NCBI RefSeq assembly: GCF_000282655.1
Contig: NZ_AKIV01000074.1
Span: forward strand, 1-64,000
Direction: 5' to 3'
Source: Polaromonas sp. CF318
GTDB lineage: Bacteria; Pseudomonadota; Gammaproteobacteria; Burkholderiales; Burkholderiaceae_C
DNA: 64,000 nucleotides
A program made the position numbers and the translations under genes. This document shows, in pieces, positions 11,149 to 15,263 of this stretch. How positions within the stretch are numbered: position 1 is the first letter of the stretch; every line of letters starts with the position of its first letter. The notes below the pieces were generated by a model. The model made no database searches. It saw only the letters and a list, made by a program, of their open reading frames with translations, and was not told the origin of the DNA.

Positions 11149-12213
11149 TTAATGGACGACCTGGGCCAGCTCGCCCTTGGCGTATTTGGCGGCCACGACC
11201 TGCAGGGCGTCGCCCTTGATCTTGGCGCCCTGGCCTTCGCATCCGAACTGGATGTAGCGCTGCTTGCAGATCTGCTTGGCGGCTTCGCGGGCGGGCTTGA
11301 GCCATTCGCGGGCATCAAATTTTTCGGGGTTTTCGGCCAGGAACTTGCGCACCGCGGCCGTCATGGCCAGGCGGATGTCGGTGTCGATGTTGATCTTGCG
11401 CACGCCGTGCTTGATGGCTTCCTGGATTTCCTCGACGGGCACGCCGTAGGTTTCCTTCATGTTGCCGCCGTACTGGCGAATCTGGGCCAGCAGTTCCTGC
11501 GGCACCGAGGAGGATCCGTGCATCACCAGGTGGGTACTGGGAATGCGCTTGTGGATTTCCTTGATGCGGTCAATCGCCAGGATGTCGCCGGTGGGCTTGC
11601 GGGTGAATTTGTAGGCACCGTGGCTGGTGCCGATGGCGATCGCCAGCGCGTCGATCTGGGTGCGCTTGACGAAGTCGGCGGCCTGCTCGGGATCGGTCAG
11701 CAGCTGCTCGCGCGTCATGGTCGCATCGGTCCCGTGGCCGTCTTCCTTGTCGCCCTTCATGGTTTCCAGCGAACCAAGGCAGCCGAGTTCGCCTTCCACA
11801 GTGACACCGTATTTGTGGGCCAGCTGCGAAACCTTTTTCGTCACCTCGACGTTGTAGTCGTAGCTGGCGATGGTTTTGCCGTCGGCCTCGAGCGAGCCGT
11901 CCATCATCACGGACGAAAAGCCGAGGTCTATGGCGCCCTGGCAGACGTCGGGGTTCTGGCCGTGATCCTGGTGCATGACCAGGGGGATGTTGGGATACAT
12001 CTCGATGGCCGCCTGGATCAGGTGCTTGATGAAGGGCTCACCGGCATATTTGCGCGCGCCGGCGCTGGCTTGCAGGATGACGGGCGCGCCGGTCTCCTTG
12101 GCCGCTTCCATGACGGCCTGCACCTGCTCGAGGTTGTTGACGTTAAAAGCCGGAATGCCGTAGCCGTTGACTGCCGCATGGTCCAGCAGCTCGCGCATCG
12201 AAACGAGTGCCAT
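11149..12213 (-). CDS. fba: Class II fructose-1,6-bisphosphate aldolase
   Basis: Zinc-dependent aldolase of 354 residues that interconverts fructose-1,6-bisphosphate with dihydroxyacetone phosphate and glyceraldehyde-3-phosphate. Zinc and substrate residues are visible in [17 protein letters not shown], the VMMDGSLE strand, VEGELGCLG and the [15 protein letters not shown] block. The start is [20 protein letters not shown]; upstream codons in the same frame do not match the family. It is followed by a strong terminator. In Burkholderiales the same enzyme type (CbbA) also serves the Calvin cycle, but no cbb genes are present here. Confidence 0.96.
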
Positions 12214-12357
12214 GATCAGAATCCCCAGAAAGTTAAAAACGCTGCCAGAAAAGGCGGGTTCCCGGCGGAAGGCCGTGCAACACGAGGGCTGCCTGGTGGG
12301 CCGTAACCGCGAAGTAACCGAAGGCCTCATTCTACCGGCTGCGTAAAGACCATTTAT

Positions 12358-13695
12358 TTAAGAAGTTAGCGGCAGAATCATGCGGTAACACCGTGTAAAA
12401 GGCACGGGCGCGGGTGTCTGCCCAAAGTGGCCGCCGTGCACGTCCATCACTCGGCCCACGATTTTGTGGCCCAGACCCAGTCTTTCGGTGGAAGGCGCCG
12501 CGGCGCCCAGACGGGCCTGACCGTCGTCGCAGACCTGCAGCCATGCGCCGCTGCCATCACGGCCCCACTGGACACAGACGGCCGTGCCCCGGGCCGTGTG
12601 CTGCAGCGCGTTATCGACGAGGTTGCGCAGGGCCAGTTCGAGCAGCAGCGGATGGGCCAGTATCTCGATGCCGTCCTCGCCCTGCACGCTGAGTGTGTGG
12701 CCGCTTTCCCAGGAGGCCTGCGCATAGCCGGCCACCACCTGCCCGACCAGGGCACCCAGGTCCAGGCGCTGCATCTGCTGCTGCAGGTCGGCGCGGCTGG
12801 CCCGCGCCAGCGCCAGCAACTGGGTAATGACGTGCCCGGCGCGCATCGCGTCGGCGCCTACCTGCGCGAGCGCCTGTTCGCGCGCGCGGGGTGAAAGCTC
12901 CCCGCGCAGCGAGGCCGCCTGCAGGGCAATGGAGGACAGCGGAGTGCGCAATTCATGGGCCACCTCGCTGGCCAGTTGTCGCTCGCGCTCCAGCGAAGCC
13001 TGCTGCTGGCCCACCAGCGTGTTGATGGAACGCACGACCGAGTTGAACTCGCGGTAGGGGTGGCGGGCCTCAAGGCGCTCGGCCTTGTCGACCTCAAGTT
13101 CGGCCACGTCACGCGACAGCGCCTGCAAGGGTCGCAAGCCGCGCCAGATGGCCGCGCCCAGCGCGAGCGCCACCACAGGCAGCAGCCACAGGCCCGGCTC
13201 CGCCAATTGCCCGGCGACGTCGGCGGCCATCTCGTCGCGCTCATCGGCGCGAACCAGCACGGTGACCTGCCGCGCGTGCGGGGTGTCCCACTGTGAAAAG
13301 CTGCGCCACGTGGCCGGCGGCGTGCCCAGTTCGAGGTCGGCGAAACCGGACTGTTCACTGAAAGGCGGCACAGGCGCATCGCCCGAGCGGGCCAGCAGCC
13401 GGCCGTCGGCGCCGCGCACCAGCACGCTTAGGGAAGGCTGGTAGTCATGGCTCTTGAGCGTGGGAATGGCGGGACGGACGGTCTCCCTCGCCGCGCCGAC
13501 AAAGGGCGGCAGGTCCAGGTTGAGCATCAGGGCAGCGGTGCCGGCCAGGTGCCCGTCGGTCAGCTCGCCCGCCTCATGGATTCCGGTCCGGTAGCCCACC
13601 GCCACGAAGCCGGCCCAGACCAGCAGCAGCGCCGCCAGCACCCACAGCAGCAGGCGGCGCGTGAGCGACGCCTGCGCACGCACCGCGGGCTTCAT
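12358..13695 (-). CDS. Sensor histidine kinase of QseC/PmrB type
   Basis: Membrane sensor of 445 residues. Helix 1 is at about residues 14-34, followed by a periplasmic domain of about 130 residues, helix 2 at about 169-185, a HAMP-like segment, and the phosphoacceptor ASEVAHELRTPLSS with His247. The N-box is ALRNLVDNALQHT. The ATP lid is very short: CDDGQARLG is followed after about nine residues by RLGLGHKIVGRVMDVHGG, so the F-box is missing. It overlaps the response regulator gene by four bases (ATGA) and should phosphorylate that regulator. The signal sensed is unknown. Confidence 0.9.
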   Translation of the reverse strand: MKPAVRAQASLTRRLLLWVLAALLLVWAGFVAVGYRTGIHEAGELTDGHLAGTAALMLNLDLPPFVGAARETVRPAIPTLKSHDYQPSLSVLVRGADGRLLARSGDAPVPPFSEQSGFADLELGTPPATWRSFSQWDTPHARQVTVLVRADERDEMAADVAGQLAEPGLWLLPVVALALGAAIWRGLRPLQALSRDVAELEVDKAERLEARHPYREFNSVVRSINTLVGQQQASLERERQLASEVAHELRTPLSSIALQAASLRGELSPRAREQALAQVGADAMRAGHVITQLLALARASRADLQQQMQRLDLGALVGQVVAGYAQASWESGHTLSVQGEDGIEILAHPLLLELALRNLVDNALQHTARGTAVCVQWGRDGSGAWLQVCDDGQARLGAAAPSTERLGLGHKIVGRVMDVHGGHFGQTPAPVPFTRCYRMILPLTS

Positions 13696-14387
13696 GCGCC
13701 ATCCTCCCGCGGTATGAAGTAGCCGACACCGCGCAGGGTCTGGATCAGGCCCTCGCCCAGCTTGCGCCGCAGGTGGTGCACATGTACCTCGACTGCATTG
13801 CTGCCGACGGCGTCCTGCCAGTTGTAGAGGCGCGCCTCGAGCTGCTGGCGCGACAGCACCCGGCCGCGCGACTCCAGCAGCAGGCGCAACAGGGCGAACT
13901 CGCGCGGCGCCAATTCAATGGCCTGCCCCGCGCGCACCACCGTGCGGGCCGCCGGGTCTATCACCAGTTCGCCGTGGGCCAGCAGCGGATGGGCGCGGCC
14001 GGCCGCGCGCCGCAGCAGCGCGCGCATGCGCGCCTCGAGTTCGTCGAGGTCAAAAGGCTTGACCAGGTAGTCGTCGGCGCCCAGGTTCAGGCCCGAGATG
14101 CGGTCGGCGACCTGGTCGCGCGCGGTCATGATGAGCACCGGCGTCAGCGGGTCGGGCAGCGCCCCGGGCGCGCCCGCGCGGACTTGGCGCAGCCGCAGCA
14201 GCAGGTCGCCGCCATCGCCATCCGCCAGCCCCAGGTCCAGCAGCACGAGGTCAAACGGCTCGCTGGACAGGGCCGACCAGGCCGACGCCAGGCTGGCGCA
14301 GGTATCCACCGCATAGCCCCTCTGCTGCAGGTTGGTCCGCAGGCCCAGGGCGATGCCGGCATCGTCTTCGACCACCAGGATTCGCAT
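13692..14387 (-). CDS. OmpR-family response regulator of QseB/PmrA type
   Basis: A 231-residue regulator with a receiver domain (about 1-120; acidic pair EDD at 7-9, phosphorylation site Asp51 in LVLLDLGLADGDGG, Lys in DYLVKPFDLDELEARMRALLRR) and a winged-helix DNA-binding domain (about 135-225) ending in SNAVEVHVHHLRRKLGEG. It is the first gene of a kinase-regulator operon and faces the PAP2 phosphatase gene. A CTTAAG-N5-GTTAAG box in the shared intergenic region matches the PmrA/QseB recognition pattern, so autoregulation and control of the phosphatase are likely. Confidence 0.92.
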   Translation of the reverse strand: MRILVVEDDAGIALGLRTNLQQRGYAVDTCASLASAWSALSSEPFDLVLLDLGLADGDGGDLLLRLRQVRAGAPGALPDPLTPVLIMTARDQVADRISGLNLGADDYLVKPFDLDELEARMRALLRRAAGRAHPLLAHGELVIDPAARTVVRAGQAIELAPREFALLRLLLESRGRVLSRQQLEARLYNWQDAVGSNAVEVHVHHLRRKLGEGLIQTLRGVGYFIPREDGA

Positions 14388-14445
14388 CGCGCCATTGTCG
14401 GCGCTTCGGACGGCGGCAGGGTGTACCGCGGGGCGCCCGCAAGGC

Positions 14446-14462
14446 CTTAAGGATGAGTTAAG
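14446..14462. promoter_or_regulatory. PmrA/QseB-like box between regulator and PAP2 gene
   Basis: CTTAAG (14446-14451), GATGA (14452-14456) and GTTAAG (14457-14462) form a direct repeat of TTAAG with 11-bp period. This fits the published PmrA box pattern YTTAAK-N5-YTTAAK. It sits 57 bases before the PAP2 start and 58 bases before the regulator start, so one site could serve both directions. Confidence 0.7.
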
Positions 14463-14519
14463 ACGCCCCCTCTATCTTGCGGCCTCCCCTGCCTGGATCA
14501 CACCCCACTTCCGAATCCC

Positions 14520-15263
14520 ATGACCGCTACTCCCTTTACCGGCGACATTACTCCCCTTGTGTCGCGTGTTCGCCTGGGAACGCTGCTCGGCCTCGCGCTG
14601 CTCATTGCCTGGGACCATTCAGGCCTGGACCTGTGGATGGCGCACTGGTTCGGATCTTCGTCGGGATTTCCGCTGGAGGACCACTGGTTCTGGCGCGGCA
14701 CGCTGCACGACGACATACGCTGGCTGCCATGGGTAGTCGAACTGGCGCTGCTGGCGGCCGTGGCGCGGCCCTTCGGTGCCCTGCGACGGCTGGCCGCCGA
14801 GCGCCGCGTCCAGCTGGCGCTGACCACCCTGGTCTCGCTGCTGGTGATATCCACCCTCAAGCTGCACAGCCTCACAAGCTGCCCCTGGGAGCTACGCGAG
14901 TTCGGCGGTACCGTGGCCTATGTGTCGCACTGGGCTTGGGGCGTGCGCGACGGCGGCAGCGGCGGCTGCTTTCCGGCCGGCCATGCCTCGGCGGGTTTTG
15001 CGTTTATCGGCGGTTTTTTTGCGTTCCGCCACGCCCTGCCCCGGACAGCGCGGCGCTGGCTGGCCGGCGCCCTGCTGGCGGGTCTGGTGCTGGGCCTGGC
15101 GCAACAGGTGCGCGGCGCCCACTACATGAGCCACACGCTCTGGACCGCCTGGCTCTGCTGGGCCTCGGCGGCGCTGGTGGACAACATCGTCAGCCAGGTG
15201 CTTTCACAAAGGCCGTCGCCGGCTCAGGCCCGGGTGCCTGCGCTCGCAACACTGAAGCCGTAG
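14520..15263 (+). CDS. PAP2-family membrane phosphatase
   Basis: A 247-residue membrane protein with about six helices. PAP2 motifs are present in altered form: KLHSLTSCPWEL for the KX6RP block, FPAGHASAGFAF (the second block, usually PSGH) and QVRGAHYMSHTLWTAW for the third, in which the usual Asp after HYxS is His. Enzymes of this family remove phosphate from lipid A, undecaprenyl pyrophosphate or phosphatidic acid. Its position opposite a PmrA/QseB-like system, with a matching box between them, favours lipid A or another envelope lipid as substrate, but this is inference. Confidence 0.8.
   Translation: MTATPFTGDITPLVSRVRLGTLLGLALLIAWDHSGLDLWMAHWFGSSSGFPLEDHWFWRGTLHDDIRWLPWVVELALLAAVARPFGALRRLAAERRVQLALTTLVSLLVISTLKLHSLTSCPWELREFGGTVAYVSHWAWGVRDGGSGGCFPAGHASAGFAFIGGFFAFRHALPRTARRWLAGALLAGLVLGLAQQVRGAHYMSHTLWTAWLCWASAALVDNIVSQVLSQRPSPAQARVPALATLKP

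Follow-up and report, generated by a model that had tools for sequence, protein, structure and literature searches.

The question raised by this locus is whether a short repeat between two divergent genes, one for a two-component response regulator and one for a PAP2-family membrane phosphatase, is a binding site for that regulator and, if so, which of the two genes it serves. The repeat, CTTAAG-GATGA-GTTAAG, was present at positions 14446-14462 of the window (the whole 64,000-nucleotide stretch of Polaromonas sp. CF318 DNA that was analysed), in the gap that separates the start of the regulator gene on the minus strand (14387) from that of the PAP2 gene on the plus strand (14520), where the first-pass annotation had placed it. 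That annotation had described it as a PmrA/QseB-like box fitting YTTAAK-N5-YTTAAK and centred between the two starts. The centring was found in the window, where the box centre and the midpoint of the gap both fall at 14454, but was not conserved in other loci. The fit to the pattern proved inexact: each strand has one mismatch, a G where the pattern asks for Y (plus) and a C where it asks for K (minus). The repeat does agree with the looser description of a PmrA box, two TTAA half-sites in direct repeat with an 11-bp period. Coordinates are collected in Table 1.

Table 1. Features at the regulator-PAP2 locus, in window coordinates
Feature	Position	Strand	Basis or remark
Sensor histidine kinase, N-terminal 2CSK_N domain, degenerate ATP-lid stretch	12358-13695	-	Best NCBIfam model QseC, below cut-off
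OmpR-family response regulator, PmrA/QseB-like, recognition helix SNAVEVHVHHLRRKLG	13692-14387	-	Pfam, NCBIfam, alignment
ACAAT, possible -10 of regulator promoter	14394-14398	-	Just upstream of regulator start; distance to box not conserved
Predicted regulator box TTAAG-N6-TTAAG, two direct half-sites (14447-14451 and 14458-14462), 11-bp period	14447-14462	+	Oriented to PAP2
Predicted -10 element TATCTT of PAP2 promoter	14473-14478	+	Hexamer starts 26 bases after box start; box in place of -35
PAP2-family membrane phosphatase, variant motifs K-x6-CPW, PAGH, RGAHYMSHT	14520-15263 (predicted start)	+	Pfam, alignments

The pattern by itself was weak evidence for the box. With up to two mismatches allowed, YTTAAK-N5-YTTAAK occurred five times in the window (two of these were the box itself), against 4.24 expected, which is no excess. 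The exact word TTAAG-N6-TTAAG was found twice in the 5.0-Mb host genome, against three times for a reversed control, and 103 times in 61 genomes of the genus, against 219 for the control, and was thus not enriched. Because the box word alone was not enriched genome-wide, position and conservation were used as criteria instead.

Conservation was examined in these 61 genomes, the host's included. PAP2 matches were found in 37 of them, and 30 of the 38 matches were read; the match in Polaromonas sp. JS666 was at 88%. An exact TTAA-N7-TTAA lay upstream of PAP2 in 24 of the 30 loci, the window's own among them. A divergent regulator adjoined PAP2 in 12 loci, all 12 of which had the exact box; 18 had no adjacent regulator, and the box was still kept in 12 of those. 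Loss of the box from relatives that keep the gene pair, which the first-pass annotation had named as grounds for abandoning its proposal, was therefore not seen in the genus. The conserved form of the box is TTAAG-N6-TTAAG, read towards PAP2. The loci without an exact box near the PAP2 start were L015, L019 (one mismatch), L022, L024, L031 (at a contig edge), and L032. At another locus (L007) the sequence upstream of PAP2 resembled the window near 12210, at the start of gene 11149-12330, which by eye we take to be aldolase-like; the regulator pair thus seems to be missing there between the aldolase-like gene and PAP2. Locus L025 (G002:C137) contained tandem identical 11-bp TTAAG units forming four overlapping exact boxes, 96-129 bases before the inferred PAP2 start.

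The adjacent regulator belongs to the OmpR family, with PF00072 (83.1 bits) and PF00486 (79.8 bits) both over the cut-off. It scored 230.2 of the 330 bits set for PmrA (NF007928) and 219.2 of 345 for QseB (NF007663), and the sensor scored 139.6 of 475 for QseC (NF007664) and 102.8 of 314 for PmrB (NF008025). Formal membership in PmrA or QseB fails, and the label "QseC/PmrB-like" given earlier to the sensor is inexact: QseC is indeed its best model, yet both proteins fall below all four cut-offs. The G1/ATP-lid stretch of the sensor is degenerate (CDDGQARLG...LGLGHKIV), as in the named relatives, and Pfam HATPase_c was marginally below its cut-off (26.2 of 26.4).

Which regulator reads the box was approached through loci of the wider family. 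A family search gave 72 further loci (one of them, L157, in the same genus), of which 21 had an adjacent type-1 regulator, 12 a type-2 regulator, and 39 neither. The TTAA box was present in 18 of the 21 type-1 loci and none of the 12 type-2 loci (Fisher 1.3e-6), and TTCA-N7-TTCA in 1 of 21 and 12 of 12, respectively (Fisher 3.7e-8), although both values overstate the association because the regulator tree has long branches and only two changes of box type. The 39 loci lacking such a neighbor comprised 4 with TTAA, 2 with TTCA, and 33 with neither. Pooling with the named and order-level loci gave 212 loci and 182 distinct intergenic strings, in which a genome under two names may count twice. 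The order-level search contributed one new locus (L314) with an adjacent regulator of either kind. Among the distinct strings, those beside a regulator with a recognition helix of the form ...HH had TTAA in 51 of 55 cases, neither box in 4, and TTCA in none; those beside helices ...SR, ...SS, ...AN, or ...HR had TTCA in 37 of 38, neither in 1, and TTAA in none. The one string whose regulator helix could not be read had TTAA, and strings with no adjacent regulator were divided among TTAA (26), TTCA (4), and neither (58). All four HH exceptions (L181, L187, L233, and L236) carried a TTAAG-type box one base off, and the exception of the other class (L294, helix FVSR) carried a mixed TTCAG-N6-TTAAT. 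In a tree of 45 regulators built with the helix columns left out, the two changes of box type both coincided with a change of helix; a sign test on two pairs cannot reach significance, and long branches meet in this tree. Within these limits, box type appears to follow the neighboring regulator, and the covariation supports that regulator as the reader.

Differences between the subfamilies fall at the residues corresponding to His195 and Asn196 of Klebsiella PmrA. The available part of the report on that protein crystallized with DNA assigns base-specific contacts to Asn188 and Asn196 and describes Thr187, Val192, and His195 as touching bases (PMC4660055). With this numbering transferred through an alignment to Escherichia coli BasR, the single type-1 regulator with a TTCA box (L165) had Gly for Val at 192, Arg at 196, and His at 195; in the TTCA-type subfamilies, residue 195 is Ser or Ala. 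The loci nearest L165 (30 of 34 matches read, window included) had TTAA in 26 cases, TTCA in 1 (L165 itself), and neither within 400 bases in 3. No sister species was available for dating the switch in L165, whose genus consists of one genome. Residue 196 was considered as the sole determinant of TTAA versus TTCA and rejected, because two regulators with altered helices, L408 (HIHR) and L412 (HVHR), have Arg there and keep TTAA. Literature listings and the openings of abstracts yielded nothing on box specificity.

The covariation has to be weighed against the host's other PmrA/QseB-like regulators, of which one (for example, that of G000:C59 or C27) could be the main reader of the box, with the neighbor incidental or sharing it. 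These two paralogues are 53-54% identical to the window's regulator and share the start of its helix, SNAVEV. Paralogue scores of 234.4/222.3 and 237.6/248.6 bits on the PmrA/QseB models, against 230.2/219.2 for the window's regulator, put them on a par with it, which makes us slightly less confident that the adjacent regulator is the reader. In 11 of 12 loci, the host's included, TTAAG-N6-CTAAG precedes the gene of the C59-type regulator itself. In addition, the PAP2 box persists in the 12 of 18 genus loci noted above as having no adjacent regulator; among the candidates scored in those 12 genomes, no regulator exceeded 55% identity at E 1e-60, and the box is therefore presumably open to use by another regulator. 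Against this stand the tracking of box type with the type of the adjacent regulator and the second half-site itself, which is CTAAG in the paralogue boxes and TTAAG in the PAP2 boxes. We consider a paralogue as main reader possible but rather unlikely.

The position of the box relative to a -10-like element bears on which gene it serves. Of the 50 HH loci long enough to score (of 51), 47 had NANNNT at offset 26 from the box, and no other offset between 16 and 39 had it in more than 2. The same offset was occupied in 34 of 37 TTCA-type loci, 15 of which also had NANNNT at offset 21, and in 16 of 26 loci with no adjacent regulator, where offset 27 accounted for 10. Because this element is fixed at offset 26, the box occupies the place of a -35, as do the sites of PmrA- and PhoB-type activators. 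Position, conservation, and the -10-like element at a fixed distance make the box real, and it looks like an activator site directed at PAP2. The choice of the membrane phosphatase as target, made in the first-pass annotation, is supported as likely.

On the regulator side, 45 of 51 HH loci had [CG]ACAAT no more than about 30 nt from the start of the gene. One could suppose that the box serves both divergent promoters, activating PAP2 and autoregulating the regulator, and the autoregulation had in fact been predicted. Many half-sites are CTTAAG, which can be read on both strands, and in 9 of the 45 loci the box ends 11-13 bases from ACAAT. Otherwise the distance varied, being 5-91 nt in 40 HH loci, 682-794 nt in 5, and 48 bases in the window, and the highest NANNNT count at any offset on this side was 7 of 51 HH loci; there was no fixed spacing. 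Because a fixed -10 exists only on the PAP2 side, autoregulation through the box is not supported, and the dual role is doubtful. An AT-rich word arising by chance, or an ordinary sigma-70 promoter with no regulator, would agree with the lack of enrichment of the pattern in the window and the genomes, but is highly improbable given the conservation, the spacing, the association with regulator type, and single-base shuffles of the intergenic strings of the 21 family type-1 loci, which gave 0.0 TTAA boxes expected against 18 observed.

Our preferred explanation, to which we assign a probability of about 0.8, is that the neighboring PmrA/QseB-like response regulator binds at the box and thereby activates PAP2. 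What carries it directly is the sequence, its conservation, the fixed spacing, and the association between box and regulator type. In response to a presumed signal, the sensor kinase would phosphorylate the regulator, a dimer of which would sit head to tail on the paired TTAAG half-sites, where a -35 would otherwise be, and transcription of PAP2 would be activated from the -10 element ten bases downstream of the box. The eptA gene may come under the same control, by a presumed action of the regulator at a slightly degenerate copy of the box. For the two box types, we lean towards the view that, within one bacterial family, two OmpR-type subfamilies exchanged control of the same lipid A phosphatase and transferase genes and that the promoter followed by a single base per half-site, from TTAAG to TTCAG, while neither the 11-bp period nor the spacing to the -10 changed. 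If this is true, the loci represent a natural swap of regulator and site that exposes how PmrA-type specificity is read.

The extension to eptA comes from a search of 29 hand-chosen, non-random genomes, all of which had matches at E 1e-20; 30 of the 34 matches were read. TTAAG-N6-NTAAG preceded eptA in 18 of these 30 loci, with TTAAG as the second half-site in 9 of the 18, and all 18 had NANNNT at offset 26 or 27. Four of the 12 unboxed eptA genes (G017, G039, G050, and G057) directly follow PAP2, beside the divergent regulator. The host's own eptA (G000:C62:65699-67378) scored 584.6 bits on the model for phosphoethanolamine-lipid A transferases, above its cut-off of 500, and 545 of the 660 bits set for the EptA equivalog. 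It is preceded by CTTAAGGACCACATAAG, in which the second half-site is one base off, and then by TACAAT at offset 27. The suggestion that other envelope genes might have the same box was thus borne out by eptA, which has this box or one close to it in 18 of 30 loci, the host's among them. PAP2 and eptA together probably form a PmrA-like lipid A modification regulon; the envelope regulon first proposed stands in outline, but formal PmrA/QseB membership fails and autoregulation is not supported.

By hand count, the exact TTAAG-N6-TTAAG occupied 84 distinct places in the 61 genus genomes: 24 at PAP2, 10 at eptA-like genes, 2 at mipA-like genes, and 48 elsewhere. One of the eptA-like boxes (G010) and both mipA-like ones were in reverse orientation. 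A pattern combining box and -10 gave 98 matches against 34 for its control in the 61 genomes, although it had been drawn up after some of the loci were seen, and 5 exact matches against 0 in the host genome; with one mismatch allowed, the host count was 14 against 18 and thus not enriched. It was rejected as a regulon predictor, being post hoc, unenriched with one mismatch, and blind to the host's own eptA, whose -10 is at 27.

Several further boxes were noted. The only other exact TTAAG-N6-TTAAG of the host genome (G000:C149:37499, L093) lies reversed upstream of a mipA-like gene that adjoins a QseC-like kinase and a regulator; G032:C11:223258 (L094) has the same box in a comparable setting. 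The box of the C59 paralogue (G000:C59:9990) is followed at offset 26 by a -10, and about 2 kb downstream lies another box (C59:12091); box pairs about 2 kb apart recur in the genus. At G000:C27:21349, TTAAG-N6-CTAAG with a -10 precedes a putative cytochrome-c-like gene (CASCHG), near another PmrA/QseB-like regulator. Similar strings, TTAAGAAA...CATCAT, were found in nine other genus genomes.

The PAP2 protein belongs to the PAP2 superfamily (PF01569, 42.9 bits; cut-off 27.2) and scored 71.7 of the 275 bits set for the NCBIfam PAP2 family lipid A phosphatase model (PAP2_lipid_A, NF028538). Canonical PAP2 phosphatases have the motifs KX6RP, PSGH, and SRX5HX3D, and the window's protein does not match them. 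Its variants recur in the 30 genus loci: K-x6-CPW in 30, PAGH in 28, and RGAHxxSHT in 29. A search for relatives in the PDB gave three matches, at E 0.039 or worse, all to unrelated proteins. In the accessible part of one report, the MCR-linked hPAP2 is proposed to regenerate lipid A monophosphate from the 1-diphosphate so that phosphoethanolamine can be added, and an LpxE-like role is thought to be ruled out (PMC7559476). By analogy, and with low certainty, a lipid A phosphate, in support of EptA, is favored as substrate over undecaprenyl pyrophosphate.

Among known systems, the closest is the PmrA (BasR) regulon of Enterobacteriaceae, which shares the direct repeat of TTAA half-sites with five bases between hexamers. 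According to the parts of the reports available, the Salmonella PmrA box consists of CTTAAG and XTTAAT, with CCTAAG as the second half-site at pbgP (PMC3973317), and PmrAB of E. coli upregulates ybjG, the gene for a PAP2-type undecaprenyl pyrophosphate phosphatase, with eptA also a PmrA target (PMC7559476). The present system differs in that regulator and sensor fall under the PmrA and PmrB cut-offs and the regulator is divergent from PAP2; moreover, the host's eptA is on another contig, which means that an eptA-pmrA-pmrB operon is absent. QseB/QseC is the second-best regulator model and the best sensor model, and the sensor has a 2CSK_N domain, but the scores lie far below the cut-offs, as given above. 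Literature listings and abstract openings contained nothing on such a system in Comamonadaceae, and the new element, as read from these sequences, is the association of a regulator subfamily with a box at one target. If the preferred reading is true, PmrA-type control of lipid A chemistry extends to Polaromonas and its relatives, and matched pairs of regulator and site become available for direct tests of OmpR-type DNA specificity. The mcr-1/hpap2 pair is alike in linking a PAP2 enzyme with a phosphoethanolamine transferase, and hPAP2, too, departs from the PAP2 catalytic triad at its central residue, as far as the available text of the two reports goes (PMC7559476; PMC10285318). Here, by contrast, the gene is chromosomal and stands beside a two-component pair with a box, and its product scored 51.9 of 475 bits on the PAP2_near_MCR1 model. 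On the preferred reading, the MCR-associated sort of PAP2 enzyme would gain a regulated chromosomal home with eptA.
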